From assembly GCF_910592395.1 (NCBI RefSeq), contig NC_088318.1, forward strand, positions 11,470,349 through 11,534,348: 64,000 nucleotides of DNA, written 5' to 3'. Source of the DNA: Lineus longissimus. Lineage: Eukaryota; Nemertea; Pilidiophora; Heteronemertea; Lineidae. The translations under genes and the position numbers were made by a program. How positions within the stretch are numbered: position 1 is the stretch's first letter; the number at the start of each line of letters is the position of its first letter. The notes below the pieces were generated by a model. The model was not told the origin of the DNA. It did no database searches and saw only the letters and a list, made by a program, of their open reading frames with translations. Positions 1 to 46,320 of this stretch are shown here, in pieces.

Positions 1-3000
1 TCAGCAGTGGCTTCAGTCTCAGCAGATGGAACCTCGGTCTCTACAGATGGGGACTCAGTTTCCTCAGCAGTGGCTTCAGTCTCAAGAGATGGAGCCTCGG
101 TCTCTTCAGATGGGGACTCAGTTTCCGCTGCTGTGGCTTCAGTCTCAGCAGATGGAGCCTCCGTCTCTACAGATGGGGACTCAGTTTCCTCAGCAGTGGC
201 TTCAGTCTCAGCAGATGGAGCCTCGGTCTCTACGGTTGGTGACTCAGTTTCTTCTACTGTGCCTTCAGTCTCAGCAGATGGAGCCTCGGTCTCTTCAGAT
301 GGGGACTCGGTTTCCTCAGCAGTGGCTTCAGTCTCAGCAGATGGAACCTCGGTCTCTTCAGATGGGGACTCAGTTTCCTCAGCTGTGGCTGCGGTCTCAG
401 CAGATGGAGCCTCGGTCTCTTCGGATGGTGACTCAGTTTCCACTACTGCGGCTTCAGTCTCAGCAGATGGAGCCTCGGTCTCTTCAGATGGTGACTCGGT
501 TTCCTCAACAGTGGCTTCAGTCTCAGCAGATGGAACCTCAGTCTCTTCAGATGGGGACTCGGTTTCCTCAGCAGTGACTTCAGTCTCAGAAGATGGAGCC
601 TCGGTCTCTTCAGATGGGGACTCAGTTTCCTCAGCACTGGCTTCAGTCTCAGCGGATGGAGCCTCGGTCTCTTCAGATGGGGACTCAGTTTTCTCAGCTG
701 TGGCTGCGGTCTCAGCAGATGGAGCCTCGGTCTCTTCGGATGGTGACTCAGTTTCCTCTACTTCTGCTTCTGTCTCAGAAGATGGAGCCTCGGTCTCTTC
801 AGATGGGGACTCAGTTTCTGCTGCTGTGGCTTCAGTCTCAGCAGATGGAGCCTCAGTCTCTACGGATGGTGACTCAGTTTCCTCAGCAGTTGCTTCAGTC
901 TCAGCCACTGGAGCCTCGGTCTCTTCAGATAAGGACTCGGTTTCCTCAACATTGGCTTCAGTCTCAGCAGATGGAGCCTCGGTCTCTTCAGATGGGGACT
1001 CAGTTTCCTCTATTGCGGCTTCAGTCTCAGCAGATGGCGCCTCGGTTTCTTCAGATGGTGACTCAGTTTCCGCTGCTGTGGCTTCAGTCTCAGCAGATGG
1101 AGCCTCCGTCTCTTCAGATTGGGATTCGGTTTCCTCAGCAGTGGCTTCAGTCTCAGCAGATGGAACCTCGGTCTCTACAGATGGGGACTCAGTTTCCTCA
1201 GCAGTGGCTTCAGTCTCAGCAGATGGAGCCTCGGTCTCTTCAGATGGGGACTCAGTTTCCGCTGCTGTGGCTTCAGTCTCAGCAGATGGAGCCTCCGTCT
1301 CTACAGATGGGGACTCAGTTTCCTCAGCAGTGGCTTCAGTCTCAGCAGATGGAGCCTCGGTCTCTACGGTTGGTGACTCAGTTTCTTCTACTGTGCCTTC
1401 AGTCTCAGCAGATGGAGCCTCGGTCTCTTCAGATGGGGACTTGGTTTCCTCAGCAGTGGCTTCAGTCTCAGCAGATGGAGCCTCGGTCTCTTCAGATGGG
1501 GACTCAGTTTCCTCAGCACTGGCTTCAGTCTCAGCAGATGGAGCCTCGGTCTCTTCAGATGGGGACTCAGTTTTCTCAGCTGTGGCTTCAGTCTCAGCAG
1601 ATGGAGCCTCAGTCTCTACGGATGGTGACTCAGTTTCCTCTACTGCGGCTTCAGTCTCAGCAGTTGGCGCCTCGGTTTCTTCAGATGGGGATTCAGTTTC
1701 TTCTGCTGTGGCTTCAGTCTCAGCAGATGGAGCCTCCGTCTCTTCGGATGGTAACTCGGTTTCCTCAGCAGTGGCTTCAGTCTCAGCAGATGGAGCCTCG
1801 GTCTCTTCAGATGGGGACTCAGTTTCTTCAGCAGTGACTTCAGTCTCAGAAGATGGAGCCTCGGTCTCTTCAGATGGGGACTCAGTTTCCTCAGCTGTGG
1901 CTGCGGCCTCGGTCTCTACGGTTGGTGACTCAGTTTCCTCAGCAGTGGCTTCAGTCTCAGCCACTGAAGCCTCAGTCTCTTCAGATGGGGACTCGGTTTC
2001 CTCAACATTGGCTTCAGTCTCAGCAGATGGAGCCTCGGTCTCTTCAGATGGGGACTCAGTTTCCGCTGCTGTGGCTTCAGTCTCAGCAGATGGAGCCTCG
2101 GTCTCTATGGTTGGTGACTCAGTTTCTTCTACTGTTGCTTCAATCTCAGCAGATGGAGCCTCGGTCTCTTCAGATCGGGACTCAGTTTCCTCAGCAGTGG
2201 CTTCAGTCTCAGCAGATGGACCCTCCGTCTCTACAGATGGGGACTCAGTTTCCTCAACAGTGGCTTCAGTCTCAGCAGATGGAGCCTCCGTCTCTACAGA
2301 TGGGGACTCAGTTTCCTCAGCAGTGGCTTCAGTCTCAGCAGATGGAGCCTCGGTCTCTACGGTTGGTGACTCAGTTTCCTCAGCAGTGGCTTCAGTCTCA
2401 GCCACTGAAGCCTCAGTCTCTTCAGATGGGGACTCGGTTTCCTCAACATTGGCTTCAGTCTCAGCAGATGGAGCCTCGGTCTCTTCAGATGGGGACTCAG
2501 TTTCCTCTATTGCGGCTTCAGTCCCAGCAGATGGCGCCTCGGTTTCTTCAGATGGTGACTCAGTTTCCTCAGCAGTGGCTTCAGTCTCAGCAGATGGAAC
2601 TTCGGTCTCTACAGATGGGGACTCAGTTTCCTCAGCAGTGGCTTCAGTCTCAACAGATGGAGCCTCGGTCTCTTCAGATGGGGACTCAGTTTCCGCTGCT
2701 GTGGCTTCAGTCTCAGCAGATGGAGCCTCCGTCTCTACAGATGGGGACTCAGTTTCCTCAGCAGTGGCTTCAGTCTCAGCAGATGGAGCCTCGGTCTCTA
2801 CGGTTGGTGACTCAGTTTCTTCTACTGTGCCTTCAGTCTCAGCAGATGGAGCCTCGGTCTCTTCAGATGGGGACTCGGTTTCCTCAGCAGTGGCTTCAGT
2901 CTCAGCAGATGGAACCTCGGTCTCTTCAGATGGGGACTCAGTTTCCTCAGCTGTGGCTGCGGTCTCAGCAGATGGAGCCTCGGTCTCTTCGGATGGTGAC

Positions 3001-6000
3001 TCAGTTTCCACTACTGCGGCTTCAGTCTCAGCAGATGGAGCCTCGGTCTCTTCAGATGGTGACTCGGTTTCCTCAACAGTGGCTTCAGTCTCAGCAGATG
3101 GAGCCTCGGTCTCTTCAGATGGGGACTCGGTTTCCTCAGCAGTGACTTCAGTCTCAGAAGATGGAGCCTCGGTCTCTTCAGATGGGGACTCAGTTTCCTC
3201 AGCACTGGCTTCAGTCTCAGCGGATGGAGCCTCGGTCTCTTCAGATGGGGACTCAGTTTTCTCAGCTGTGGCTGCGGTCTCAGCAGATGGAGCCTCGGTC
3301 TCTTCGGATGGTGACTCAGTTTCCTCTACTTCGGCTTCTGTTTCAGAAGATGGAGCCTCGGTCTCTTCAGATGGGGACTCAGTTTCTGCTGCTGTGGCTT
3401 CAGTCTCAGCAGATGGAGCCTCAGTCTCTACGGATGGTGACTCAGTTTCCTCAGCAGTTGCTTCAGTCTCAGCCACTGGAGCCTCGGTCTCTTCAGATAA
3501 GGACTCGGTTTCCTCAACATTGGCTTCAGTCTCAGCAGATGGAGCCTCGGTCTCTTCAGATGGGGACTCAGTTTCCTCTATTGCGGCTTCAGTCTCAGCA
3601 GATGGCGCCTCGGTTTCTTCAGATGGTGACTCAGTTTCCGCTGCTGTGGCTTCAGTCTCAGCAGATGGAGCCTCCGTCTCTTCAGATTGGGATTCGGTTT
3701 CCTCAGCAGTGGCTTCAGTCTCAGAAGATGGAACCTCGGTCTCTACAGATGGGGACTCAGTTTCCTCAGCAGTGGCTTCAGTCTCAGCAGATGGAGCCTC
3801 GGTCTCTTCAGATGGGGACTCAGTTTCCGCTGCTGTGGCTTCAGTCTCAGCAGATGGAGCCTCGGTCTCTACAGATGGGGACTCAGTTTCCTCAGCAGTG
3901 GCTTCAGTCTCAGCAGATGGAGCCTCGGTCTCTACGGTTGGTGACTCAGTTTCTTCTACTGTGCCTTCAGTCTCAGCAGATGGAGCCTCGGTCTCTTCAG
4001 ATGGGGACTTGGTTATCTCAGCAGTGGCTTCAGTCTCAGCAGATGGAACCTCGGTCTCTTCAGATGGGGACTCAGTTTGCTCAGCTGTGGCTGCGGTCTC
4101 AGCAGATGGAGCCTCGATCTCTTCGGATGGTGACTCAGTTTCCACTACTGCGGCTTCAGTCTCAGCAGATGGAGCCTCGGTCTCTTCAGATGGTGACTCG
4201 GTTTCCTCAACAGTGGCTTCAGTCTCAGCAGATGGAGCCTCGGTCTCTTCAGATTGGGACTCGGCTTCCTCAGCAGTGACTTCAGTCTCAGAAGATGGAG
4301 CCTCGGTCTCTTCAGATGGGGACTCAGTTTTCTCAGCTGTGGCTGCGGTCTCAGCAGATGGAGCCTCGGTCTCTTCAGATGGGGACTCGGTTTCCTCAGC
4401 ACTGGCTTCAGTCTCAGCGGATGGAGCCTCGGTCTCTTCAGATGGGGACTCAGTTTTCTCAGCTGTGGCTGCGGTCTCAGCAGATGGAGCCTCGGTCTCT
4501 TTGGATGGTGACTCAGTTTCCTCTACTTCGGCTTCTGTCTCAGAAGATGGAGCCTCGGTCTCTTCAGATGGGGACTCAGTTTCTGCTGCTGTGGCTTCAG
4601 TCTCAGCAGATGGAGCCTCAGTCTCTTCGGATGGTGACTCAGTTTCCTCAGCAGTTGCTTCAGTCTCAGCCACTGGAGCCTCGGTCTCTTCAGATTGGGA
4701 CTCGGTTTCCTCAACATTGGCTTCAGTCTCAGCAGATGGAGCCTCGGTCTCTTCAGATGGGGACTCAGTTTCCTCTATTGCGGCTTCAGTCTCAGCAGAA
4801 GGCGCATCGGTTTCTTCAGATGGTGACTCAGTTTCCGCTGCTGTGGCTTCAGTCTCAGCAGATGAAGCCTCCGTCTCTTCAGATGGGGATTCGGTTTCCT
4901 CAGCAGTGGCTTCAGTCTCAGCAGATGGAACCTCGGTCTCTACAGATGGGGACTCAGTTTCCTCAGCAGTGGCTTCAGTCTCAGCAGATTGAGCCTCGGT
5001 CTCTACGGTTGGTGACTCAGTTGCTTCTACTGTGCCTTCAGTCTCAGCAGATGGAGCCTCGGTCTCTTCAGATGGGGACTCGGTTTCCTCAGCAGTGGCT
5101 TCAGTCTCAGCAGATGGAACCTCGGTCTCTTCAGATGGGGACTCAGTTTCCTCAGCTGTTGCTGCGGTCTCAGCAGATGGAGCCTCGGTCTCTTCGGATG
5201 GTGTCTCAGTTTCCACTACTGCGGCTTCAGTCTCAGCAGATGGAGCCTCGGTCTCCTCAGATGGTGACTCGGTTTCCTCAACAGTGGCTTCAGTGTCAGC
5301 AGATGGAGCCTCGGTCTCTTCAGATGGGGACTCGGTTTCCTCAGCAGTGACTTCAGTCTCAGAAGATGGAGCCTCGGTCTCTTCAGATGGGGACTCAGTT
5401 TCCTCAGCACTGGCTTCAGTCTCAGCGGATGGAGCCTCGGTCTCTTCAGATGGGGACTCAGTTTCTGCTGCTGTGGCTTCAGTCTCAGCAGATGGAGCCT
5501 CAGTCTCTACGGATGGTGACTCAGTTTCCTTAGCTGTGGCTTCAGTCTCAGCAGATGGAGCCTCGGTCTCTTCGGATGGTGACTCAGTTTCCTCAGCAGT
5601 GGCTTCAGTCTCAGCCACTGGAGCCTCGGTCTCTTCAGATGGGGACTCGGTTGCCTCAACATTGGCTTCAGTCTCAGCAGATGGAGCCTCGGTCTCTTCA
5701 GATGGGGACTCAGTTTCCTCTATTGCGGCTTCAGTCTCAGCAGATGGCGCCTCGGTTTCTTCAGATGGTGACTCAGTTTCCGCTGCTGTGGCTTCAGTCT
5801 CAGCAGATGGAGCCTCCGTCTCTTCAGATGGGGATTCGGTTTCCTCAGCAGTGGCTTCAGTCTCAGCAGATGGAACCTCGGTCTCTACAGATTGGGACTC
5901 AGTTTCCTCAGCAGTGGCTTCAGTCTCAGCAGATGGAGCCTCGGTCTCTACGGTTGGTGATTCAGTTGCTTCTATTGTGCCTTCAGTCTCAGCAGATGGA

Positions 6001-9000
6001 GCCTCGGTCTCTTCAGATCGGGACTCGGTTTCCTCAGCAGTGGCTTCAATCTCAGCAGATGGACCCTCGGTCTCTTCAGATGGGGACTCAGTTTCCTCAG
6101 CTGTGGCTGCCGTCTCAGCAGATGGAGCCTCGGTCTCTTCGGATGGTGACTCAGTTTCCACTACTGCGGCTTCAGTCTCAGCAGATGGAGCCTCGGTCTC
6201 TTCAGATGGTGACTCGGTTTCCTCAACAGTGGCTTCAGTCTCAGCAGATGGAGCCTCAGTCTCTTCAGATGGGGACTCGGTTTCCTCAGCAGTGACTTCA
6301 GTCTCAGAAGATGGAGCCTCGGTCTCTTCAGATGGGGACTCGGTTTCCTCAACATTGGCTTCAGTCTCAGCAGATGGAGCCTCAGTGTCTTCAGATGGGG
6401 ACTCAGTTTCCTCAGCAGTGACTTCAGTCTCAGAAGATGGAGCCTCGGTCTCTTCAGATGGGGACTCAGTTTCCTCAGCACTGGCTTCAGTCTCAGCGGA
6501 TGGAGCCTCGGTCTCTTCAGATGGGGACTCAGTTTTCTCAGCTGTGGCTGCGGTCTTAGCAGATGGAGCCTCAGTCTCTTCGGATGGTGACTCAGTTTCC
6601 TCTACTTCGGCTCCTGTCTCAGAAGATGGAGCCTCGGTCTCTTCAGATGGGGACTCAGTTTCTGCTGCTGTGGCTTCAGTCTCAGCAGATGGAGCCTCAG
6701 TCTCTACGGATGGTGACTCAGTTTCCTCAGCTGTGGCTTCAGTCTCAGCAGATGGAGCCTCGGTCTCTTCGGATAGTGACTCAGTTTCCTCAGCAGTGGC
6801 TTTAGTCTCAGCCACTGGAGCCTCGGTCTCTTCAGATGGGGACTCAGTTTCCTCTATTGCGGCTTCAGTCTCAGCAGATGGCGCCTCGGTTTCTTCAGAT
6901 GGTGACTCAGTTTCCGCTGCTGTGGCTTCAGTCTCAGCAGATGGAGCCTCCGTCTCTTCAGATGGGGATTCCGTTTCCTCAGCAGTGGCTTCAGTCTCAG
7001 CAGATGGAACCTCGGTCTCTACAGATGGGGACTCAGTTTCCTCAGCAGTGGCTTCAGTCTCAACAGATGGAGCCTCGGTCTCTTCAGATGGGGACTCAGT
7101 TTCCGCTGCTGTGGCTTCAGTCTCAGCAGATGGAGCCTCCATCTCTACAGATGGGGACTCAGTTTCCTCAGCAGTGGCTTCAGTCTCAGCAGATGGAGCC
7201 TCGGTCTCTTCGGATGGTGACTCAGTTTCCACTACTGCGGCTTCAGTCTCAGCAGATGGAGCCTCGGTCTCTTCAGATGGTGACTCGGTTTCCTCAACAA
7301 TGGCTTCAGTCTCAGCAGATGGAGCCTCGGTCTCTTGAGATGGGGACTCAGATTCCTCTACTGCGGCTTCAGTCTCAGCAGGTGGCGCTTCGGTTTCTTC
7401 AGATGGGGACTCAGTTTCCGCTGCTGTGGCTTCAGTCTCAGCAGATGGAGCCTCGGTCTCTTCAGATGGGGACTCAGTTTCCTCTACTGCGGCTTCAGTC
7501 TTAGCAGATGGAACCTTGGTCTCTACAGATGGGGACTCAGTTTCCTTAGCAGTGGCTTCATTCTCAGCAGATGGAGCCTCGGTCTCTTCAGATGGAGACT
7601 CAGTTTTCGCTGCTGTGGCTCCAGTCTCAGCAGATGGAGCCTCCGTCTCTACAGATGGGGACTCAGTTTCCTCAGCAGTGGCTTCAGTCTCAGCAGATGG
7701 AGCCTCAGTCTCTTCAGATGGGGACTCAGTTTCCTCAGCAGTGGCTTCAGCCTCAGCAGATGGTGCCTCGGTTTCTTCAGATGGGGACTCAGTTTCCTCA
7801 GCAGTGGCTTCAGTCTCAGCAGATGGAGCCTCGGTCTCTTCAGATGGGGACTCAGTTTCTTCAGCAGTGGCTTCAGTCTCAGCAGATGTAGCCTCCGTCT
7901 CTTGGGATGGCGAGTCAGTTTCCTCAGCAGTGGCTTCAGTGTCAGCAGATGGAGCCTCAGTCTCTTCAGATGGGGACTCGGTTTCCTCAGCAGTGACTTC
8001 AGTCTCAGCAGATGGCGCCTCGGTTTCTTCAGATGGGGACTCAGTTTCCGCTGCTGTGGCTTCAGTCTCAGCAAATGGAGCCTTGGTCTCTACGGTTGGT
8101 GACTCAGTTTCTTCTACTGTGGCTTCAGTCTCAGCAGATGGAGCCTCGGTCTCTTCAGATGGGGACTCGGTTTCCTCAGCAGTGGCTTCAGTCTCAGCAG
8201 ATGGAACCTCGGTCTCTTCAGATGGGGACTCAGTTTCCTCAGCTGTGGCTGCGGTCTCAGCAGATGGAGCCTCGGTCTCTTCGGATTGTGACTCAGTTTC
8301 CACTACTGCGGCTTCAGTCTCAGCAGTTGGAACCTCGGTCTCTACAGATGGGGACTCAGTTTCCTCAGCAGTGGCTTCAGTCTCAGCAGATGGAGCCACG
8401 GTCTCTTCAGATGGGGACTCAGTTTCCGCTGCTGTGGCTTCAGTCTCAGCAGATGGAGCCTCCGTCTCTACAGATGGGGACTCAGTTTCCTCAGCAGTGG
8501 CTTCAGTCTCAGCAGATGGAACCTCGGTCTCTTCAGATGGGGACTCAGTTTCCTCAGCTGTGGCTGCGGTCTCAGCAGATGGAGCCTCGGTCTCTTCGGA
8601 TGGTGACTCAGTTTCCTCAGCAATGGCTTCAGTCTCAGCAGATGGAGCCTCAGTCTCTTCGGATGGCGACTCAGTTTCCTCAGTAGTGGCTTCAGTCTCA
8701 GCAGATGGAGCCTCGGTCTCTTCGGATGGTGACTCAGTTTCCTCAGCAGTGGCTTCAGTCTCAGCCACTGGAGCCTCGGTCTCTTTAGATGGGGACTCGG
8801 TTCCCTCAACAGTGGCTTCAGTATCAGCAGATGGAGCCTCGGTCTCTTCGGATGGTGACTCGGTTTCCTCACCAGTGGCTTCAGTCTCAGCAGATGGAAC
8901 CTCGGTCTCTTCAGATGGGGACTCAGTTTCCTCTACTGCGGCTTCAGTCTCAGCAGATGGAACCTCGGTCTCTACAGATGGGGACTCAGTTTCCTCAGCA

Positions 9001-12000
9001 GTGGCTTCAGTCTCAGCAGATGGAGCCTCAGTCTCTTCAGATGGGGACTCGGTTTCCTCAGCAGTGGCTTCAGTCTCAGCAGATGGAACCTCGGTCTCTT
9101 CAGATGGGGACTCAGTTTCCTCAGCTGTGGCTGCAGTCTCAGCAGATGGAGCCTCGGTCTCTTCGGATGGTGACTCGGTTTCCTCAACCGTGGCTTCAGT
9201 CTCAGCAGATGGAGCCTCGGTCTCTTCAGATGGGGACTCAGTTTCCTCTACTGCAGCTTCTGTCTCAGCAGATGGCGCCTCGGTTTCTTCAGATGGGGAC
9301 TCAGTTTCCGCTGCTGTGGCTTCAGTCTCAGCAAATGGAGCCTTGGTCTCTACGGTTGGTGACTCAGTTTCTTCTACTGTGGCTTCAGTCTCAGCAGATG
9401 GAGCCTCGGTCTCTTCAGATGGGGACTCGGTTTCCTCAGCAGTGGCTTCAGTCTCAGCAGATGGAACCTCGGTCTCTTCAGATGGGGACTCAGTTTCCTC
9501 AGCTGTGGCTGCGGTCTCAGCAGATGGAGCCTCGGTCTCTTCGGACTGTGACTCAGTTTCCACTACTGCGGCTTCAGTCTCAGCAGTTGGAACCTCGGTC
9601 TCTACAGATGGGGACTCAGTTTCCTCAGCAGTGGCTTCAGTCTCAGCAGATGGAGCCACGGTCTCTTCAGATGGGGACTCAGTTTCCGCTGCTGTGGCTT
9701 CAGTCTCAGCAGATGGAGCCTCCGTCTCTACAGATGGGGACTCAGTTTCCTCAGCAGTGGCTTCAGTCTCAGCAGATGGAACCTCGGTCTCTTCAGATGG
9801 GGACTCAGTTTCCTCAGCTGTGGCTGCGGTCTCAGCAGATGGAGCCTCGGTCTCTTCGGATGGTGACTCAGTTTCCTCAGCAGTGGCTTCAGTCTCAGCA
9901 GATGGAGCCTCAGTCTCTTCGGATGGCGACTCAGTTTCCTCAGCAGTGGCTTCAGTCTCAGCAGATAGAGCCTCGGTCTCTTCGGATGGTGACTCAGTTT
10001 CCTCAGCAGTGGCTTCAGTCTCAGCCACTGGAGCCTCGGTCTCTTTAGATGGGGACTCGGTTCCCTCAACAGTGGCTTCAGTCTCAGCAGATGGAGCCTC
10101 GGTCTCTTCGAATGGTGACTCGGTTTCCTCAGCAGTGGCTTCAGTCTCAGCAGATGGAACCTCGGTCTCTTCAGATGGGGACTCAGTTTCCTCTACTGCG
10201 GCTTCTGTCTCAGCAGATGGAACCTCGGTCTCTACAGATGGGGACTCAGTTTCCTCAGCAGTGGCTTCAGTCTCAGCAGATGGAATCTCGGTCTCTTCAG
10301 ATGGGGACTCAGTTTCCGCTGCTGTGGCTTTAGTCTCAGCAGATGGAGCCTCCGTCTCTACAGATGGGGACTCAGTTTTCTCAGCAGTGGCTTCAGTCTC
10401 AGCAGATGGAGCCTCGGTCTCTTCAGATGGGGACTCAGTTTCCTCAGCAGTGGCTTCAGTGTCAGCAGATGGAGCCTCGGTCTCTTCAGATGGGGACTCA
10501 GTTTCCTCAGCTGTCGCTGCAGTCTCAGCAGATGGAGCCTCGGTCTCTTCAGATGGGGACTTAGTTTCCTCAGCAGTGGCTTCAGTCTCAGCAGATGGAG
10601 CCTCCGTCTCTACAGATGGGGACTCAGTTTCCTCAGCAGTGGCTTCAGTCTCAGCAGATGGAGCCTCGGTCTCTTCAGATGGGGACTCAGTTTCCTCAGC
10701 AGTGGCTTCAGTGTCAGCAGATGGTGCCTCGGTCTCTACGGTTGGTGACTCAGTTTCTTCTACTGTGGCTTCAGTCTCAGGAGATTGAGCCTTGGTCTCT
10801 TCAGATGGGGACTTGGTTTCCTCAGCAGTGGCTTCAGTCTCAGCAGATGAAACCTCGGTCTCTTCAGATGGGGACTCGGTTTCCTCAGCTGTCGCTGCGG
10901 TCTCAGTAGATGGCGCCTCGGTCTCTTCGGATGGGGATTCGGTTTCCTCAGCTTTGGCTTCAGTCTCAGCAGATGGAGCCTCGGTCTCTTCAGATGGGGA
11001 CTCAGTTTCCTCTACTGCGGCTTCAGTCTCAGCAGATGGAACCTCGGTCTCTACAGATGGGGACTCAGTTTCCTCAGCAGTGGCTTGAGTCTCAGCAGAT
11101 GGAGCCTCAGTCTCTACGGATGGTGACTCAGTTTCCTCAGCAGTGGCTTCAGTCTCAGCCACTGGAGCCTCGGTCTGTTCAGATGGGGACTCAGTTTCCT
11201 CTATTGCGGCTTCAGTGTCAGCAGATGGAGCCTCGGTCTCTACGGTTGGTGACTCAGTTTCTTCTACTGTGGCTTCAGTCTCAGGAGATTGAGCCTCGGT
11301 CTCTTCAGATGGGGACTCGGTTTCCTCAGCAGTGGCTTCAGTCTCAGCAGATGGAACCTCGGTCTCTTCAGATGGGGACTCAGTTTCCTCAGCTGTCGCT
11401 GCGGTCTCAGCAGATGGAGCCTCGGTCTCTTCGGATGGGGATTCGGTTTCCTCAGCTTTGGCTTCAGTCTCAGCAGATGGAGCCTCGGTCTCTTCAGATG
11501 GGGACTCAGTTTCCTCTACTGCAGCTTCAGTCTCAGCAGATGGAGCCTCGGTCTCTACAGATTGGGGCTCAGTTTCCTCAGCAGTGGCTTCAGTCTCAGC
11601 AGATGGAGCCTCAGTCTCTACGGATGGTGACTCAGTTTCCTCAGCAGTGGCTTCAGTCTCAGCCACTGGAGCCTCGGTCTCTTCAGATGGGGACTCAGTT
11701 TCCTCTATTGCGGTTTCAGTCTCAGCAGATGGAGCCTCGGTCTCTTCGGATGGTGACTCAGTTTCCTCAGCAGTGGCTTCAGTCTCAGCAGATGGAGCCT
11801 CGGTCTCTTCGGATGGCGATTCAGTTTCCACTACTGTAGTTTCAGTCTCAGCAGATGGAGCCACGGTCTCTTCGGATGGTGACTCAGTTTCTTCTCCTGT
11901 GGCTTCAGTCTCAGCAGATGGTGCCTCGGTTTCTTCAGATGGTGACTCAGTTTCCACTGCTGTAGCTTCAGTCTCAGCAGATGGAGCCTCTGTCACTTCG

Positions 12001-15000
12001 AATGGTGACTCAGTTTTTGCTGCTGTGGTTTCAGTCTCAGCAGATGGCGCCTCGGTGTCTTCGGATGGTGACTCAGTTTCCTCAGCAGTGGCTTCAGTCT
12101 CAGCAGATGGAGCCTCGGTCTCTTCGGATGGTGACTCGGTTTCCTCAGCAGTGCCTACAGTCTCAGCAGATGGAGCCTCCGTCTTTTCAGATGGGGACTC
12201 AGTTTCCTCAGCAGTGGCTTCAGTCTCAGCAGATTGAGCCTCGGTCTCTTCAGATGGGGACTCAGTTTCCTCAGCTGTGGCTGCAGTCTCAGCGGATGGA
12301 GCCTCGGTCTCTTCAGATGGGGACTCAGTTTCTGCTGCTGTGGCTTTAGTCTCAGCAGATGGAGCCTCCGTCTCTTTGGATGGTGACTCAGTTTCTACTG
12401 CTGTGGCTTCAGTCTCAGCAGATGGAGCCTCGGTCTCTTCAGATGGAGACTCGGTTTCCTCAGCAGTGGCTTCAGTCTCAGCAGATGGAGCCTCGGTCTC
12501 TTCAGATGGGGACTCAGTTTCTTCAGCAGTGGCTTCAGTCTCAGCAGATGGAGCCTTGGTCTCTTCAGATGGGGACTCAGTTTCCTCAGCAGTGGCTTCA
12601 GTCTCTGCAGATGGAGCCTCGGTCTCTTCGGATGGCGACTCGGTTTCCTCAACAGTGGCTACAGTCTCAGCAGATGGAGGCTCGGTCTCTTCAGATGGCG
12701 ACTCGGTTTCCTCAGCAGTGGCTTCAGTCTCAGCAGATGGAGCCTCGGTCTCTTCATATGGGGACTCGGTTTCCTCAGCAGTGGCTTCAGTCTCAGCAGA
12801 TGGAGCCTTGGTCTCTTCAGATGGGGACTCAGTTTCCTCAGCAGTCGTTTCAGTCTCAGCAGATGGAACCTCGGTCTCTTCAGATGGGGACTCAGTTTCT
12901 TCAGCAGTGGCTTCAGTCTCAAGAGATGGAGCCTCCGTCTCTTCAGATGGGGACTCAGTTTCCTCAGCAGTGGATTCAGTCTCTGCAAATGGAATCTCGG
13001 TCTCTTCGGATGGCGACTCGGTTTCCTCAGCAGTGGCTTCAGTCTCAGCAGATGGAGCCTCGGTCACTTCAGATGGGGACTCAGTTTCCTCAGCAGTGGC
13101 TTCAGTCTCAGCAGATGGAGCCTCGGTCTCTTCGGATGGTGACTCAGTTTCCACTGCTTTAGCTTCAGTCTCAGCAGATGGAGCCTCGGTCTCTTCGGAT
13201 GGCAACGCAGTTTCCACTGCTGTAGCTTCAGTCTCAGCAGATGGAGCCTTGGTCTTTTCAGATGGTGACTCAGTTTCTTCTGCTGTGGCTTCAGTCTCAG
13301 CAGATGGAGCCTCCGTCTCTTTGGATGGTGACTCAGTTTCTTCTGCTGTGACTTCAGTCTCAGCAGATAAAGCTTCAGTCTCTTCAGATGGCAACACAGT
13401 TTCCACTGCTGTAGATTCAGTTTCAGCAGATGGAGCCTCGGTCTCTTCGGATGGTGACTCAGTTTCTTCTGCTGTGGCTTCAGTCTCAGCAGATGGAGCC
13501 TCCGTCTCTTCAGATGGGGACTCAGTTTCCTCAGCTATGGCTGTGGTCTCAGCAGATGGGGCCTTGGTCTCTTCGGATGGTGACTCAGTTTCCGCTACTG
13601 CGGCTTCAGTCTCAGCAGATGGCGCCTCGGTTTCTTGAGATGGGGACGCAGTTTCCTCAGCAGTTGCTTCAGTCCACGCAGATGGAGCCTCTGTCTCTAC
13701 GGGTGGTGACTCAGTTTCTTCTACTGTGGCTTCAGTCTCAGCAGATGGAGCCTCGGTCTCTTCAGATGGTGACTCAGTTTCCTCAGCAGTTGCTTCAGTC
13801 CACGCAGATGGAGCCTCTGTCTCTACGGGTGGTGACTCAGTTTCTTCTACTGTGGCTTCAGTCTCAGCAGATGGAGCCTCGGTCTCTTCAGATGGGGACT
13901 CAGTTTCCTCAGCAGTGGCTTCAGTCTCTGCAGATGGAGCCTCGGTCTCTTCGGATGGCGATTCGGATTCCTCAGCAGTGGCTACAGTCTCAGCAGATGG
14001 AGGCTCGGTCTCTTCAGATAGGGACTCGGTTTCCTCAGCAGTGGCTTCAGTCTCAGCAGATGGAGCCTCGGTCTCTTCATATGGGGACTCGGTTTCCTCA
14101 GCAGTGGCTTCAGTCTCAGCAGATAGAGCCTTGGTCTCTTCAGATGGGGACTCAGTTTCCTCAGCAGTGGCTTCAGTCTCAGCAGATGGAGCCTCGGTCA
14201 CTTCAGATGGGGACTTGGTTTCCTCAGCAGTGGCTTCAGTCTCAGCAGATGGAGCCTCGGTCTCTTCGGATGGTGACTCAGTTTCTTCTGCTGTGGCTTC
14301 AGTCTCAGCAGATGGAGCCTCGGTCTCTTCGGATGGTGACTCAGTTTCCACTGCTTTAGCTTCAGTCTCAGCAGATGGAGCCTCGGTCTCTTCAGATGGC
14401 AACGCAGTTTCCACTGCTGTAGCTTCAGTCTCAGCAGATGGAGCCTCGGTCTCTTCAGATGGTGACTCAGTTTCTTCTGCTGTGGCTTCAGTCTCAGCAA
14501 ATGGAGCCTCCGTCTCTTTGGATGGTGACTCAGTTTCTACTGCTGTGGCTTCAGTCTCAGTAGATGGAGCCTCGGTCTCTTCAGATGGGGACTCAGTTTC
14601 CTCATCTATGGCTGCGGTCTCAGCAGATGGAGCCTCGGTCTCTTCGGATGGTGACTCAGTTCCCGCTACTGCGGCTTCAGTCTCAGCAGATGGCGCCTCG
14701 GTTTCTTCAGATGAGGACTCAGTTTCCGCTGCTGTTGCTTCAGTCTCATCAGATGGAGCCTCGGTCTCTTCAGGTGGGGACTCAGTTTCCTCAGCAGTGG
14801 CAGCGGTCTCAGCAGATGGAGCCTCGGTCTCTTCGGATGGTGACTCAGTTTCTTCTGCTGTGACTTCAGTTTCAGCAGATGGAGCCTCGGTCTCTTCTAA
14901 TGGTGACTCAGTTTCCTCGGCAGTGGCTTCAGTCTCAGCAGATGGAGCCTCGGTCTCTTCCGATGGCGACTCAGTTTCCACTGCTGTAGCTTCAGTCTCA

Positions 15001-18000
15001 GCAGATGGAGCCTCGGTCTCTTCGGATGGTGACTCAGTTTCTTCTGCTGTGGCTTCAGTCTCAGCAGATGCAGCCTCGGTCTCTTCAGATGGGGACTCGG
15101 TTTCTTCAGCAGTGGGTTCAGTCTCTGCAGATGGAACCTCGGTTTTTTCGGATGGTGACTCAGTTTCCTCAGCTGTGGCTGTGGTCACAGCAGATGGAGC
15201 CTCGGTCTCTTCAGATGGTGACTCAGTTTCAGTTTCAGTTTCCTCAGTTTCTTCTACAGCGGCTTCAGTCTCAGCAGATGGAGCCTCGGTCTCTTCAGAT
15301 GGGGACTCGGTTTCCTCAGCAGTGGCTTCAGTCCCAGCCGATGGAACCTCGGTCTCTTCAGATGGTGACTCAGTTTCCTCAGCAGTGACTTCAGTCACAG
15401 CAGATGGAGCCTTGGTCTCTTGAGATGGGGACTCGGTTTCGTCAGCAGTGGCTTCAGTCTCAGCAGATGGAGCCTCGGTCTCTTCAGATGGGGACTCGGT
15501 TTCCTCAGGAGTGGCTTCAGTTTCAGCAGATGGAGCCTCGGTCTCTTCAGATGGCGACTCAGTTTCCACTGCTGTAGCTTCAGTCTCAGCAGATGGAGCT
15601 TCGGTCACTTCGGATGGTGACTCAGTTTCTTCTGCTGTGGTTTCAGTCTCAGCAGATGGAGCCTCGGTCTCTTCAGATGGGGACTCGGTTTCCTCAGCAG
15701 TGGCTTCAGTCTCAGCCGATGGAACCTCGGTCTCTTCAGATGGTGACTCAGTTTCCTCAGCAGTGGCTTCAGTCACAGCAGATGGAGCCTTGGTCTCTTG
15801 AGATGGGGACTCGGTTTCCTCAGCAGTGGCTTCAGTCTCAGCAGATGGAGCCTCGGTCTCTTCAGATGGGGCCTCAGTTTCCTCAGCTTTGGCTGCGGTC
15901 TCAGCAGCTGAGGCCTCGGTCTCTACGGCTGGTGACTCAGTTTCCTCAGCAGTGGCTTCAGTCTCAGCAGCTGGAGCCTTGGTTTCTTCAGATGGGGCCT
16001 CAGTTTCCTCAGCTGTGGCTGCGGTCTCAGCAGCTGAAGCCTCGGTCTCTTCGGCTGGTGACTCAGTTTCCTCAGCAGTGGCTTCAGTCTCAGCAGATGG
16101 AGCCTCGGTCTCTACGGATGGTGACTCAGTTTCCTCAGCAGTGGCTTCAGTCTCAGCAGATGGAGCCTCGGTCTCTACGGATGGTGACTCGGTTTCCTCA
16201 GCTGTGGCTGCGGTCTCAGCAGCTGGAGCCTCGGTCTCTTCGGCTGGTGATTCAGTTTCCTCAGCTGTGGCTGCGGTCTCAGCAGATGGAGCCTCGGTCT
16301 CTACGGATGGTGACTCAGTTTCCTCAGCAGTGGCTTCAGTCTCAGCAGATGAAGCCTCGGTCTCTACGGATGGTGACTCAGTTTCCTCTGCTGTGGCTGT
16401 GGTCTCAGCAGCTGGAGCCTCGGTCTCTTCGGATGGTGACTCAGTTTCCTCAGCACTTGCTTCAGTCTCAGCGGATGGAGCCTCGGTTTCTTCAGATGGG
16501 GCCTCAGTTTCCTCAGCTGTGGCTGCAGTCTCAGCAGCTGTAGCCTCGGTCTCTTCGGCTGGTGACTCAGTTTCCGCAGCTGTGGCTGCGGTCTCAGCAG
16601 CTGTAGCCTCGGTCTCTTCGGCTGGTGACTCAGTTTCCTCAACTGTGGCTTCAGTCTCAACAGATGGAGCTTCGGTTTCTTCAGATGGGGACTCAGTTTT
16701 CTCAGCAGTGGCTTCAGTCTCAGCAGATGGAGCCTCGGTCTCTTCCGCTGGTGACTTAGTTTCCTCTACTGTGGCTTCAGTGTCAGCAGATGGAGCCTCG
16801 GTCTCTTCAGATGGGGACTCAGTTTCCTCAGCAGTGGCTTCAGTCTCAGCAGCTGGAGCCTTGGTTTCTTCAGATGGGGCCTCAGTTTCCTCAGCTTTGG
16901 CTGCGGTCTCAGCAGCTGAAGCCTCGGTCTCTTCGACTGGTGACTCAGTTTCCTCAGCAGTGGCTTCAGTCTCAGCAGCTGGAGCCTTGGTTTCTTCAGA
17001 TGGGGCCTCAGTTTCCTCAGCTGTGGCTGCGGTCTCAGCAGCTGAAGCCTCGGTCTCTTCGGCTGGTGACTCAGTTTCCTCAGCAGTGGCTTCAGTCTCA
17101 GCAGATGGAGCCTCGGTCTCTATGGATGGTGACTCAGTTTCCTCAGCAGTGGCTTCAGTCTCAGCAGATGGAGCCTCGGTCTCTACGGATGGTGACTCGG
17201 TTTCCTCAGCTGTGGCTGCGGTCTCAGCAGCTGGAGCCTCGGTCTCTTCGGCTGGTGATTCAGTTTCCTCAGCTGTGGCTGCGGTCTCAGCAGATGGAGC
17301 CTCGGTCTCTACGGATGGTGACTCAGTTTCCTCAGCAGTGGCTTCAGTCTCAGCAGATGGAGCCTCGGTCTCTACGGATGGTGACTCAGTTTCCTCTGCT
17401 GTGGCTGCGGTCTCAGCAGCTGGAGCCTCGGTCTCTTCGGATGGTGACTCAGTTTCCTCAGCACTGGCTTCAGTCTCAGCGGATGGAGCCTCGGTTTCTT
17501 CAGATGGGGCCTCAGTTTCCTCAGCTGTGGCTGCGGTCTCAGCAGCTGTAGCCTCGGTCTCTTCGGCTGGTGACTCAGTTTCCTCAGCAGTGGCTTCAGT
17601 CTCAGCAGATGGAGCCTCGGTCTCTTCGGCTGGTGACTCAGTTTCCTCAGCAGTGACTTCAGTCTCAGCCAATGGAACCTCGGTCTCTTCAGATGGTGAC
17701 TCAGTTTCTTCTACAGCGGCTTCAGTCTCAGCAGATGGAGCCTCGGTCTCTTCAGATGGGGACTCGGTTTCCTCAGCAGTGGCTTCAGTCTCAGCCGATG
17801 GAACCTCGGTCTCTTCAGATGGTGACTCAGTTTCCTCAGCAGTGGCTTCAGTCACAGCAGATGGAGCCTTGGTCTCTTGAGATGGGGACTCGGTTTCCTC
17901 AGCAGTGGCTTCAGTCTCAGCAGATGGAGCCTCGGTCTCTTCAGATGGGGACTCAGTTTCCTCAGGAGTGGCTTCAGTCTCAGCAGATGGAGCCTCGGTC

Positions 18001-20990
18001 TCTTCAGATGGGGACTCAGTTTCCTCAGTTGTGGCTGCGGTCACAGCAGATTGAGCCTCGGTCTCTTCAGATGATGACTCAATTTCTTCTGCTGCGGTTT
18101 CAGTCTCAGCAGATGGCGCCTCGGTTTCTTCAGATGGGGACTCAGTTTCCGCTGCTGTGGCTTCAGTCTCAGCAGATGGAGCCTCCGTCTCTTCAGATGG
18201 GGACTCAGTTTTCTCATTAGTGGCTTCAGTCTCAGCAGATGGAGCCTCGGTCTCTTCGGCTGGTGACTTAGTTTCCTCTACTGTGGCTTCAGTCTCAGCC
18301 GATGGAACCTCGGTCTCTTCAGATGGTGACTCAGTTTCCTCAGCAGTGGCTTCAGTCACAGCAGATGGAGCCTTGGTCTCTTGAGATGGGGACTCGGTTT
18401 CCTCAGCAGTGGCTTCAGTCTCAGCAGATGGAGCCTCGGTCTCTTCAGATGGGGACTCAGTTTCCTCAGGAGTGGCTTCAGTCTCAGCTGATGGAGCCTC
18501 AGTCTCTTCAGATGGGGACTCAGTTTCCTCAGTTGTGGCTGCGGTCATAGCAGATTGAGCCTCGGTCTCTTCAGATGATGACTCAATTTCTTCTGCTGCG
18601 GTTTCAGTCTCAGCAGATGGCGCCTCGGTTTCTTCAGATGGGGACTCAGTTTCCGCTACTGTGGCTTCAGTCTCAGCAGATGGAGCCTCCGTCTCTTCAG
18701 ATGGGGACTCAGTTTTCTCATTAGTGGCTTCAGTCTCAGCAGATGGAGCCTCGGTCTCTTCGGCTGGTGACTTAGTTTCCTCTACTGTGGCTTCAGTCTC
18801 AGCAGCTGGAGCCTTGGTTTCTTCAGATGGGGCCTCAGTTTCCTCAGCTTTGGCTGCGGTCTCAGCAGCTGAAGCCTCGGTCTCTTCGGCTGGTGACTCA
18901 GTTTCCTCAGCAGTGGCTTCAGTCTCAGCAGCTGGAGCCTTGGTTTCTTCAGATGGGGCCTCAGTTTCCTCAGCTGTGGCTGCGGTCTCAGCAGCTGAAG
19001 CCTCGGTCTCTTCGGCTGGTGACTCAGTTTCCTCAGCAGTGGCTTCAGTCTCAGCAGATGGAGCCTCGGTCTCTACGGATGGTGACTCAGTTTCCTCAGC
19101 AGTGGCTTCAGTCTCAGCAGATGGAGCCTCGGTCTCTACGGATGGTGACTCGGTTTCCTCAGCTGTGGCTGCGGTCTCAGCAGCTGGAGCCTCGGTCTCT
19201 TCGGCTGGTGATTCAGTTTCCTCAGCTGTGGCTGCGGTCTCAGCAGATGGAGCCTCGGTCTCTACGGATGGTGACTCAGTTTCCTCAGCAGTGGCTTCAG
19301 TCTCAGCAGATGGAGCCTCGGTCTCTACGGATGGTGACTCAGTTTCCTCTGCTGTGGCTGCGGTCTCAGCAGCTGGAGCCTCGGTCTCTTCGGATGGTGA
19401 CTCAGTTTCCTCAGCACTTGCTTCAGTCTCAGCGGATGGAGCCTCGGTTTCTTCAGATGGGGCCTCAGTTTCCTCAGCTGTGGCCGCGGTCTCAGCAGCT
19501 GTAGCCTCGGTCTCTTCGGCTGGTGACTCAGTTTCCTCAGCTGTGGCTGCGGTCTCAGCAGCTGTAGCCTCGGTCTCTTCGGCTGGTGACTCAGTTTCCT
19601 CAACTGTGGCTTCAGTCTCAACAGATGGAGCTTCGGTTTCTTCAGATGGGGACTCAGTTTTCTCAGCAGTGGCTTCAGTCTCAGCAGATGGAGCCTCGGT
19701 CTCTTCCGCTGGTGACTTAGTTTCCTCTACTGTGGCTTCAGTGTCAGCAGATGGAGCCTCGGTCTCTTCAGATGGGGACTCAGTTTCCTCAGCAGTGGCT
19801 TCAGTCTCAGCAGCTGGAGCCTTGGTTTCTTCAGATGGGGCCTCAGTTTCCTCAGCTTTGGCTGCGGTCTCAGCAGCTGAAGCCTCGGTCTCTTCGACTG
19901 GTGACTCAGTTTCCTCAGCAGTGGCTTCAGTCTCAGCAGCTGGAGCCTTGGTTTCTTCAGATGGGGCCTCAGTTTCCTCAGCTGTGGCTGCGGTCTCAGC
20001 AGCTGAAGCCTCGGTCTCTTCGGCTGGTGACTCAGTTTCCTCAGCAGTGGCTTCAGTCTCAGCAGATGGAGCCTCGGTCTCTACGGATGGTGACTCAGTT
20101 TCCTCAGCAGTGGCTTCAGTCTCAGCAGATGGAGCCTCGGTCTCTACGGATGGTGACTCGGTTTCCTCAGCTGTGGCTGCGGTCTCAGCAGCTGGAGCCT
20201 CGGTCTCTTCGGCTGGTGATTCAGTTTCCTCAGCTGTGGCTGCGGTCTCAGCAGATGGAGCCTCGGTCTCTACGGATGGTGACTCAGTTTCCTCAGCAGT
20301 GCCTTCAGTCTCAGCAGATGGAGCCTCGGTCTCTACGGATGGTGACTCAGTTTCCTCTGCTGTGGCTGCGGTCTCAGCAGCTGGAGCCTCGGTCTCTTCG
20401 GATGGTGACTCAGTTTCCTCAGCACTGGCTTCAGTCTCAGCGGATGGAGCCTCGGTTTCTTCAGATGGGGCCTCAGTTTCCTCAGCTGTGGCTGCGGTCT
20501 CAGCAGCTGTAGCCTCGGTCTCTTCGGCTGGTGACTCAGTTTCCTCAGCAGTGGCTTCAGTCTCAGCAGATGGAGCCTCGGTCTCTTCGGCTGGTGACTC
20601 AGTTTCCTCAGCAGTGACTTCAGTCTCAGCAGATGGAGCCTTGGTCTCTTCGGCTGGTGACTCAGTTTCCTCAGCAGTGGCTTCAGTCTCAGCAGATGGA
20701 GCCTCGGTCTCTTCGGCTGGTGACTCAGTTTCCTCAGCAGTGGCTTCAGTCTCAGCAGATGGAGCCTCGGTCTCTTCAGATGGGGACTCAGTTTCCTCAT
20801 TTGTGGCTGCGGTCTCAGCAGCTGGAGCCTCGGTCTCTTCGGCTGGTGACTCAGTTTCCTCAGCAGTGGCTTCAGTCTCAGCAGATGGAGCCTCGGTCTC
20901 TACGGATGGTGACTCAGTTTCCTCAGCTGTGGCTGCGGTCTCAGCAGCTGGAGCCTCGGTCTTTGCGGGTGGTGACTCGGTTTCTTCAGC
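1..20990 (-). repeat. 63-bp coding minisatellite array (three 21-bp subunits per unit, about 333 units)
   Basis: A 63-bp unit made of three related 21-bp subunits repeats without interruption and is translated on the minus strand by the last exon of the pacifastin-like gene. Length changes keep the frame (for example a 15-nt loss near 1905 and an irregular in-frame insertion near 15230). Higher-order copies are visible: an offset of 2568 nt (41 units minus 15 nt) links about 440-1400 with about 3010-3970; an offset of 1260 nt (20 units) links about 8470-8870 with 9730-10070; an offset of 2961 nt (47 units) links about 16790-17550 with 19750-20510. From about 15.85 kb rightwards the units shift to an alanine-richer subfamily (TAATAEE, TEASAAE). 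True copy number may differ from the assembly. Confidence 0.95.
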
Positions 20991-23900
20991 TGGTGATGTT
21001 GTCTCTGTTGATGGGGCCACTGTTTCTTTAACTGTGCTAGAGGTCTCTTCTGATGGGGCTTCTGTTTGTGGTTTTGTGCAGTCTTCTGTCGAACAACTAT
21101 CAGAAATCGTCCATGTTTTTTTGTCGCACAGGCAAGTGTTACAATCATCGTTTTTCTTTGGTGAAGGCACTTGCTTTCCTGTAATGAAAACCTTACATGG
21201 TAAGTAGTCTGCTTTTAATTGCATTTTGATTTAAGTATGTATCACTCTCCAAGAAAATGTCATCAACTTTGCAAAGGTCAGGTGGATTTGCTCCTTTGCA
21301 TTAATATTTCAAACATTGAACATTACAGCTATTGTAGTACACGACTTGTATATTACACAAGCCGATATCTTTTGAATGTTCTCATTATTTTCATCATTCT
21401 CCAGTTTAGCTGTCTTTTTCGTTCCACCTACTTCTCTCCTGTTCCTGATACCAAATATTCTTTATCCCATTCAACCAGGAAGTCTCAGGCCTGAAGTCAT
21501 TTGAGGACCTGCCCAAATCCGCTCTCTAAGAAGAGGGTTCAGGTCTTAAAAGTTGAAAGTGGATAACCCGTCTTGCAGATTGCCTGCCAGTTGTGTAATG
21601 AAATAAACGGTTACCTGGCTCAAGACATGGTTTCTCCTCTAACAGTTTCTGTGATGGACAGTCTTTTCTCGTACAGGATGGCGTCAGTTGACCGTGATTG
21701 TTACAAAGACAGACGTTACAATCTCCCCATGGCGACGGCGCCATTTTACCTAAAAACACACAGCGAAAGTTGTTTACAATTGATAATTGCTTTTATAATG
21801 GATTTCGGGCAGTGGAATGTCATCACATCATGACATGAATCGCTGCTCACTTCTCGAAATGAATTGAACGTTGAATTGATAGTTTTGTTAGTCACAGCAG
21901 ATACGTAAAAGAGATGTTGGTTTGAAATCGTGTCCAGTCCTTGAAATTAACCAGCTAGGTCCCTTCGCGTCTTTCTTAGTACATGTAGTAGTATCAGTCG
22001 TGCACGAAAAGGGAAGTATCATGAAAGAGATATTTCCAAAATCTAACATTTGTAATTTTTTTGTAAGTACATGTAGGGTTTAGGGTTCGCAAATACCGCA
22101 TATATATATTTCTCCTGTCTTAAGGATAGGAGTCATTTGCGCTCGGCGCTGGTGGGTTTTGTACTTAGTAAACTCACCTCTCCTGCAGGGGTGTTTTTCC
22201 GAACATGACCGCTTGGTGCAGGTTGTTGAGACGAATCCATCCGTACCACATAAACACTGGTTGCACAGATCCCAAGGCGAGGGCACGAATTCACCTGAAA
22301 AAGTAACGGGCGTAACAAGAAAACCAAGGTAAAAAATCGTTAGCTTTCCTGACGGCCTCTCAGAAGTAATGCCACCCTGACCTTAAGTCGCGCAAGTACA
22401 ATTCGTGAAAATATGTTTTTATCGGAAATACCAAAATGAAATCGTAAATATTTTGTTATCTTTTCTTCAAAATGTTAGTCAATCGAAAAACAAAAACCGA
22501 GGAAGCATTATAACAGGGCCAGATTGCTCAATCGGTGTTGGCAGTAATGTTGGGGAATTCCTAACGCTATTATTGGAATTACATTGACAGAAGGAGATAA
22601 GGCTTACAATGTTGTTGAGATCACGTTGGCGTTATCTGTTACACCGACAACTTGGACATGGTTTATGCAACTCACCTGGCCTTGGACAAGGGAATTCCTT
22701 GTCATGATCCGGGAGGACGTCCACGTCTAAGATAATGGCCGCCTCCGTCCTTATACATTTCAATGCGACACGACAATAATCGGCCAAAACACGCCCTCGG
22801 TTGTCACAGAAACACTTCTCACATTCCGAGTTTTTTATCTTCACCCATTTTCCTGAAGGAAAGAATCGAGATTAAATAAGAAAATTACTATGCCGGAGGC
22901 TTTTAGTACACCTATTGACACAAATCAACATAGCCGAATACGGAGTCGCACCTATTCGCCTCCATGCGCCTTCTCATGTAGCAACAGACTAAATGCTGAT
23001 CACTAATAACGATTTCCGCAAGTGTTGTGAGGTGGTTTTAAGTTCGGGTTCAGGGGTTTTCAAGATAAACATGATATTAATAATAATGATAAATACTATA
23101 TGTACAATGAACAAAAAAAGTAAATGAAGAGAGAAAAAAATGTTGTGATTGCAGGGAGTCGAACCCGTGACCACCAGACCGAAAGTCCAGCATTCTAACC
23201 GTTGAACCAGATGTTTTTTATGTAAGGATGGAGATTTTCTTCACATCTAATAGCCCGGCTATGGCAATATGGTGAAAAAAGTCCAAATATTTTTTCACTC
23301 GTCTTTTTTCTGCTCAAAATGAAGAAACAACATCAGCCCCCAAAAAATTTTGGCTTTGAAAATTTTTAGAATTTTGAACTAATGAAAAAATTCAACTCTG
23401 AAGGATGAAAAAGAACTGACCTTATCGGTGACCCAGACATATATAATATGAATACCTTCAGGTATTGAGATGTCTAATGCACAAAGGGTTGACTTGGGAT
23501 ACATGACTGATGAATTGCTCAGCTAAATTTATCATCAGTTTAACAGTTCAACGGAAGCTCGAAAGATTGGCTGTGATAGTGTACTACGCCTTCAAACTGA
23601 GAGAGACAATATGCAGCAGGGCCAAATTGGTCATCTATAGTTTGTCGTATTGATATAGCTCACTGCGATTTTGAGGGAGAACTTGTGTGTTGGATTTATG
23701 TGAATGTGCCTATTCGAATAGGCGTACAGGTCTGGCGAAATATCAGTTGACGGACGGACCTGAAGCCTCGATGTTAGTTTACCCCATCGTAACAACAAAA
23801 AAAAAAACGACAAACAATTGAGTAAAGAGAGTGGGTGAACAAGACACTAGTCCATTTCAGTCCATTCCGTGCACTTTTTGATATCCCCCATGGTATAAAT

Positions 23901-24617
23901 TTACATAACACCCTCATGCCGCAAGTGAAGTATACGGCGAAAATAATCACTAATGAAGTATTCGTGGGAAACCCTCTGAATTCATCGTACATGTAGTTGA
24001 TGCGGCCCACACATTCTTTCACGCCCTTGATTAGAAGGTCATTGATACAGAAATTAAGCGCAAGTAATTACCAGCACGACCACGCGCCGGATGCATGTTG
24101 GATGTCGGGGTATGCTGCCGGCTGGACAATGCTTCAGTTCCAAGGCAAGACGATGCATAGCATTGATAGCAATACCACTACTAGTGATGCACTCAGTTCG
24201 AAGGAAGTACTCCTTTGATAATAAGTCGATAATCAACCCTCCCTTCAAAATTATGAAATCAAACACAAATATATTGTTTGTCAGAGTCTGATTATTGTGT
24301 TATTTGTAATCATTTATGCTTGGTATAAAATAATTGGCCAGGTCTAATTTCATCGGATCATGATCATGATGGATTGCCACATGTGCGCATCACACTGCGA
24401 GAGATTTTTATACAGTTTCTCGACGCGACCTGTTACAATTTATGCAAATGCTGTATACTGTGTATAACAATTAAATCAAGTGAAAAAACACACGAAATGA
24501 TGGAAAAATAGGAAACGCTCGCTTACCTTTTGATCGGCATGGTCCTCCTTTCGTTGCTTTTTCGACTGCGAGAGTCCCGCTGACCGATACGGCCAGTAAA
24601 ATAATCACCAATCTCAT
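1..24617 (-). CDS. Giant secreted protein: signal peptide, four pacifastin-like domains, acidic 21-residue repeat tail (3' end outside window)
   Basis: Exons read right to left: 24617-24527, 22852-22676, 22294-22178, 21749-21615, and 21178 to beyond position 1. All four introns are GT-AG and phase 1. Exon 1 starts MRLVIILLAVSVSGTLA, a clear signal peptide. Four cysteine modules follow; modules 2 and 3 fit the pacifastin inhibitor pattern closely (C-x12/13-C-N-x-C-x-C-x3-G-x5-C-T-x3-C, seen as CNQCLC...CTKRSC and CNVCLC...CTRKDC), while modules 1 and 4 are looser (CEKCFC, CNTCLC). In known pacifastin inhibitors the residues before the last Cys form the reactive site; CTRKDC suggests trypsin-type specificity. 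After a short T/P/E linker the last exon stays open for at least 21178 nt, in heptads such as TEATAEE, TESPSEE, TEAPSAE. In-window coding is about 7232 residues. Likely extracellular, highly acidic, perhaps heavily phosphorylated or O-glycosylated (inference). No full-length homologue recognised. Confidence 0.87.
23145..23217 (-). other. tRNA-like relic or tRNA-derived SINE fragment
   Basis: Within intron 1 of the pacifastin-like gene the minus strand reads an A-box-like TGGTTCAACGG, an anticodon-like arm CTGGA-CTTTCGG-TCTGG with UUC (Glu) in the anticodon position, and a perfect B box GGTTCGACTCC, followed by a T-rich run. The acceptor stem does not pair and the T stem has two mismatches, so a working tRNA is unlikely. 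A degraded tRNA gene or the head of a tRNA-derived SINE fits better. Confidence 0.55.
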
Positions 24618-37926: not shown

Positions 37927-38154
37927 CTACGGGTCTTGGGCCCAGAATCTGTCCAAGCCTCTCTTGAATGCGACAGCGTTGTCGGCATTTACGACCCAGC
38001 CTGGCAGCGAATTCCAACCCCTCACGGTTCTCACCATGAAAGCATTTTTCCTGACGTTTGACCGTGGCCGGGTATGTCTGAGCTTATATTGATGTCCCCT
38101 AGTGGTTTGGGGACCCCCTTGGTGAAGGTAAGGGTGACCACGCCGGTCCACCAT
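37927..38154 (-). pseudogene. C-terminal fragment of a non-LTR retrotransposon reverse transcriptase (copy 1)
   Basis: The peptide contains RGHQYKLRHTRPRSNVRKN and VRGWNSLPGWVV followed by FKRGLDRFW. This is the typical extreme C-terminus of reverse transcriptases from CR1/Jockey-like non-LTR elements. Nothing of the polymerase core is present, so this is a 5'-truncated tail carried along in the satellite. Confidence 0.75.
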
Positions 38155-38408
38155 ACACCAGGGATTTAAAAAGCAAGAGACATCAAAGAGACGTGGGTTC
38201 CATGGTGGCTAATTAACAACAACACGATTATGACAAGTCGGACATTGCAATTAAAGCCATGCCGTTAAAGTTCCAGGAATCGCTTTGATTTTATACCCGT
38301 TGCTTGAAAAGTCGGTGTCGTTAGCTACGCGCATAATAGCAACGCATTACCGAGACTGACCACGAGGAGGTGACACCACCAGTCTCATAAAAAAAGGGGG
38401 TTACTCAC

Positions 38409-43850: not shown

Positions 43851-43854
43851 AAAT

Positions 43855-46245: not shown

Positions 46246-46320
46246 GCTTTCTCTTGGGCTCCACTACAGACTATGTCAATTCGATGATGCTGACAATATG
46301 CGGAATGAGAAGTTTGAGCC

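Follow-up and report, generated by a model that had tools for sequence, protein, structure and literature searches.

What kind of protein is encoded at one end of this locus, where a minus-strand frame carrying cysteine modules runs directly into a very long acidic repeat, and does the repeat behave as protein-coding sequence at all? The window is the whole 64,000-nucleotide stretch of Lineus longissimus DNA that was analysed. From 24617 to the window edge, its minus strand can be read as a single gene with five predicted exons, in which a signal-peptide-like start and four cysteine modules on phase-1 exons lead into one long open exon, as the initial annotation had described. The features are as follows.

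Exon 1, 24527..24617, minus strand: start codon, signal-peptide-like stretch MRLVIILLAVSVSGTLA and first cysteine of module 1
Exon 2, 22676..22852, minus strand: rest of module 1, linker and first cysteine of module 2
Exon 3, 22178..22294, minus strand: rest of module 2 and first cysteine of module 3
Exon 4, 21615..21749, minus strand: rest of module 3 and first cysteine of module 4
Exon 5, 1..21178, minus strand, open to the window edge: rest of module 4, with the acidic tail directly after
Acidic tail, 1..21065, minus strand: 21-residue (63-nt) unit with consensus TESPSEETEAPSAETEATAEE, no stop, running off the window

Gene model and exon structure

All four predicted introns are of the GT-AG type and in phase 1, and the codon split by each of them is a glycine lying three or four residues past the first cysteine of a module. 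The spliced frame of the predicted exons comprises 7,232 codons without a stop up to the window edge, and retention of a single intron, tested for the four introns one by one, introduces 23, 5, 5 or 8 stops. An in-frame TGA precedes the ATG by 48 nt, and the first 17 residues, which are hydrophobic, look signal-peptide-like as judged by hydropathy only. Exon 5, called open for at least 21178 nt at the outset, indeed has no stop in the 21,178 nt that lead to the window edge. Since this one exon holds both the tail and the last five cysteines of module 4, the join between them needs no splice prediction. The window ends inside the array, placing the C-terminus beyond it, where a membrane anchor or another domain could be carried.

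Within intron 1, a tRNA-like stretch at about 23150-23220 (minus strand) has what resembles a B box by eye and is perhaps a SINE; over the whole window, ARAGORN called no tRNA and Rfam at gathering threshold gave no match.

The inhibitor head

Pacifastin inhibitors act on serine proteases and are held together by disulfides C1-C4, C2-C6 and C3-C5. The 24 cysteines of the present head fall into four groups of six, with loops between successive cysteines of 13-2-1-10-5 in module 1, 13-2-1-9-4 in module 2, 12-2-1-9-4 in module 3 and 15-2-1-10-4 in module 4. The C2-x2-C3-x-C4 core together with a C5-x4-C6 reactive loop is found in three of the four modules, the C5-C6 loop of module 1 being 5 residues long. 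An Asn after C2 and a Gly in the C4-C5 loop are further pacifastin features (PMC13388995; this and the other papers are cited from the portions of their text available to us). Modules 2 and 3 have both, module 1 is without the Asn and module 4 without the Gly.

A Pfam search of the first 231 residues assigned the head to a single family, Pacifastin_I (PF05375), at E 1.5e-11 in three stretches, with a score of 44.2 bits against a curated cut-off of 27.9. When residues 19-231 were shuffled with the cysteines fixed, none of nine shuffles matched Pacifastin_I, and one matched an unrelated family at 0.13. Taken singly, none of the four modules reaches the curated cut-off: module 3 (5.4e-6) and module 2 (1.5e-4) match Pacifastin_I below the whole-protein cut-off, the start of exon 5 does so at 0.0053, and module 1 has no match. 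Module 4 by itself scores 0.19, which is worse than one shuffled control and proves nothing, since one of four shuffled modules matched Pfam at 0.027. The pacifastin identity first proposed for all four modules is thus supported for the head as a whole and for modules 2 and 3. Support is uneven, good for these two and weak for module 4, and module 1 would count as a pacifastin only by its place, its intron position and its likeness to the other modules.

Beyond profile matching, the five-cysteine half-module pattern was sought in the six reading frames of the whole 64 kb and occurs exactly four times, each time in a predicted exon; 60 random sequences from a first-order Markov model of the 43 kb outside the array (21001-64000) gave a mean of 0.03 and a maximum of 1. 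Relative to the module 2 piece, the pieces of modules 3, 4 and 1 show 42, 37 and 28% identity, respectively. Under the published rule placing P1 two residues after C5 (PMC13388995), the predicted reactive bonds are K-R in module 2, R-K in module 3 and T-E in module 4. Modules 1 and 4 are probably no longer canonical inhibitors but structural elements. Release of single modules is not predicted, because each of the head's five dibasic pairs sits within a module and the linkers contain none.

Protein searches returned no animal relative for the head or the start of exon 5, and no pacifastin either: the head within a 466-residue query matched none of 227 candidates at E up to 0.001, and the head alone none of 87 at E up to 10. 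As neither head search recovered any pacifastin, their bearing on animals is slight. Used as a query, the start of exon 5 (400 residues) gave one match among the 776 candidates sharing most words, namely P0001 (4,261 residues), at E 1.6e-21 and with 49% identity across 12% of the query; it has AEAPAEE-kind repeats and the Pfam domains PF09479 and PF17802, neither of them Pacifastin_I; we take these to be the domains of a bacterial surface protein. P0001 was rejected as a homologue, its likeness being confined to low-complexity repeats. Against solved structures, a sequence search up to E 10 listed four chains, none of them significant: LCMI-II twice (0.093 and 0.24), an unrelated hydrogenase (0.19) and serine protease inhibitor I (0.42). 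Structure prediction for the exon-3 piece (without its module's first cysteine), with three other exon pieces as the alignment, gave a low-confidence model (pLDDT 47).

The acidic tail

Within the window, the tail spans 7,021 residues or 334.3 units of 21 (copy number as assembled), close to the first estimate of about 333 acidic copies. Its first 75 bases or so are irregular, and Tandem Repeats Finder places the array between 20990 and 1, reporting three main rows with 87% matches each. A 63-residue sliding match, which could miss smaller ones, reveals two register shifts, neither of which breaks the frame. The tail is composed of 34% Glu, 19% Ala, 19% Thr, 13% Ser and 9% Pro, and contains 71 Lys and Arg together, two of them Arg, with no cysteine, no dibasic pair and no N-glycosylation sequon. 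With a net charge of about -2,332, in line with the polyanion first suggested, it should adopt an extended form. Several hundred phosphoserines had been considered possible at S-x-E sites, and the tail counts 550 of these sites, alongside 268 S-x-S sites, among 927 serines; the S-x-E density climbs from 39 per 700 residues near the head to about 60 farther away. No Thr or Ser of the consensus unit is more than two residues from a Glu.

Codons one base away from the unit consensus comprise 731 synonymous and 512 non-synonymous cases, a ratio to expectation of 0.26 that does not come from independent events since the copies descend from each other, with no stop-making change against about 46 expected. 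For this reason, each kind of change was also counted once, whereby 37 of 47 synonymous, 79 of 134 non-synonymous and none of 8 stop-making changes occur. The absence of stop-making changes stands out in this once-only count as well (0/8 versus 116/181 for the others; Fisher p 0.0004), and the synonymous bias receives weaker support (p 0.02). Both counts cover one-difference codons, leaving out those with two or more differences. Given the synonymous excess and the absence of stop-making changes, the array is behaving as coding sequence, with constraint at the protein level between copies. The substitution pattern and the lack of stop-making changes also rule out a chance open frame. The tail's five other frames contain 13 to 1,280 stops; plus-strand frames over the array are also long, up to 1,663 residues, because the repeat unit has few stops.

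Relation to known proteins

Pacifastin domains found in matrix-linked proteins have been grouped as an ‘ancestral’ class with C1-C2 loops of 13-20 residues, and the arthropod class has been read as soluble effectors (PMC13388995). The loops of modules 1, 2 and 4 (13, 13 and 15) fit the ‘ancestral’ range, whereas that of module 3 (12) falls in the range of the other, soluble class. The present protein resembles the matrix-linked pacifastins (PF05375) in its C..C.C core, its several modules and its predicted extracellular location, and further in a C1-C2 loop of at least 13 in three of four modules and a basic P1 in two (PMC13388995). It differs from them in its partner, as theirs are folded domains (Laminin G, Lustrin, VWC and others) and a giant acidic repeat tail is not mentioned in the available portion of PMC13388995.

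Two further proteins invite comparison. Trichoplax TAPP-1, with 42 pacifastin modules in 88 exons, is likewise a large non-arthropod pacifastin gene with introns inside its modules (PMC2689174). However, TAPP-1 modules are split into three plus three cysteines, whereas in the present gene the intron follows the first cysteine in four of four modules, and the size of the present protein comes from the tail, not from the number of modules (PMC2689174). Limpet shell holds an uncharacterized VWC/pacifastin protein with a pI of 3.87, which shares acidity, an extracellular location (predicted here) and a pacifastin-type domain with the present protein, but was found in biomineral; it has 13% cysteine, and the available portion of the report lists no disordered segment and does not mention a repeat tail (PMC4094399). 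The initial annotation had proposed an ‘undescribed class’ of secreted protein, which is too strong, since pacifastin domains within extracellular-matrix proteins have already been reported (PMC13388995, PMC4094399). As of 2009, no pacifastin had been reported in Annelida, Mollusca or Deuterostomia (PMC2689174), a view that PMC13388995 supersedes for molluscs. Pacifastin inhibitors also occur in barnacle cement and silkworm cocoon (PMC7177777, PMC8371367, PMC4393245). Fam20C takes part in oyster shell formation (PMC5824888) and has been proposed for tubeworm cement (PMC12621633).

On the side of the tail, a likeness of kind, not of sequence, can be drawn by description. Dentin phosphophoryn and tubeworm cement protein 3 are repetitive, serine-rich, secreted and phosphorylated chains in which Fam20C-type kinases are implicated. 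These are built of Asp/Ser or poly-Ser, whereas the present tail consists of Glu, Thr, Ala, Ser and Pro in 21-residue units and bears an inhibitor head. Among the literature matches listed, no title or abstract start joined a pacifastin with a giant acidic repeat. Matrix proteins with pacifastins are known, and so are acidic repeat proteins; their combination looks new.

Proposed function and alternatives

The exon structure, the modules and the constrained array are read from the DNA itself. For their use, we infer, with a probability of roughly 0.5, that a genuine animal gene here encodes a giant secreted polyanion, a phosphorylated and cation-binding chain of matrix or mucus with a trypsin-type inhibitor head. 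The predicted signal peptide would direct the chain into the secretory pathway, where Fam20C-type kinases act on S-x-E, and many of the several hundred S-x-E and S-x-S serines could be phosphorylated there before secretion. The extended chain might then bind calcium or other cations, and swell or cross-link within mucus, cuticle, tube, shell matrix or adhesive. With the head remaining attached to the tail, modules 2 (Lys-Arg) and 3 (Arg-Lys) would block trypsin-like proteases locally, which might protect the material or time its processing. By analogy, a matrix chain with its own trypsin-type inhibitor would fit the pacifastins reported from matrix-linked proteins, shell, cement and cocoon.

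Other readings assign the same parts differently. Long Thr/Ser/Pro tandem arrays without cysteine are what mucin domains look like, and a tail with 19% Thr, 13% Ser and 9% Pro in a long cysteine-free array could belong to a gel-forming, mucin-like protein that is chiefly O-glycosylated, its acidity adding charge and phosphate playing no part. We consider this unlikely, as the enzymes that start mucin-type glycosylation disfavour a nearby Glu, such as stands within two residues of each Thr and Ser of the consensus unit; moreover, secreted gel-forming mucins flank their Thr/Ser/Pro repeats with D, C8 or CK cysteine domains, and the Pfam matches of the first 231 residues include no mucin-type cysteine domain. 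It is somewhat less probable still that the protein is a multi-domain protease inhibitor of the circulation or saliva, with a disordered tail that would be a device for size and solubility and have no matrix role. Trypsin-type reactive residues are kept in two modules, and soluble effectors are how the arthropod class is read, yet three of the four modules have C1-C2 loops in keeping with the matrix-linked class (PMC13388995), and a tail of more than 7,000 residues seems a costly device.

The length of the array could instead reflect a recent, near-neutral expansion, or be inflated or wrong in the assembly, the working protein being the head with a short acidic tail. Exact internal duplications of up to 546 nt occur, and 19 of the 25 longest listed are spaced by a whole number of units, a pattern that is expected of unequal exchange and marks such exchange as recent. 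Against this stand 21 kb without a stop or frameshift, few non-synonymous changes and no stop-making ones. Furthermore, likeness between neighbouring units averages only 87%, so a recent burst alone would not account for the array. We judge this the least probable of the alternatives.

Returning to the secreted matrix polyanion, a broader proposal, which we advance tentatively and hold as possible, is that a lineage of such giant proteins arose when exon shuffling joined matrix-type pacifastin modules to an expanding acidic, kinase-ready repeat, yielding an extracellular material that protects itself, is rich in phosphate or binds calcium, and carries the inhibitor in its chain. If the transcript is confirmed, the product would be, to our knowledge, among the largest secreted acidic repeat proteins, and its inhibitor would form part of a structural polyanion, whereas the pacifastins of barnacle cement and silk cocoons are secreted separately. 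The protein would also fit the published view of pacifastins beginning as matrix-linked modules, add an intron arrangement to the two in the available portion of PMC2689174, and provide a natural sequence for materials that bind calcium or act as adhesives.

Neighbouring features in the window

Outside the giant gene, several open stretches at 29884-35626 (minus strand) show EF-hand-like calcium loops by eye; two of eight match Pfam EF-hand families weakly, the best at 0.0028 and 0.0016, below the cut-off. This is possibly one multi-EF-hand gene, lying upstream of the giant gene in the same orientation. A 635-residue open frame at 44356-46263 (minus strand) matches a FLYWCH zinc finger (9e-07) and, just below the cut-off, a weak PHD finger (1.5e-4), and is perhaps derived from a transposon. 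On the plus strand, a 482-residue open frame at 55591-57039, with no match to Pfam up to 0.001, has seven D-S-V-P-A-R-like motifs, most of them followed by basic residues. Additionally, two tandem arrays were observed: four to five copies of a unit of about 1.2 kb at 37938-43661, in which the compared stretches are 98-100% identical except one at 88%, and 4.8 copies of a 109-base unit at 43854-44369 with 95% matches.
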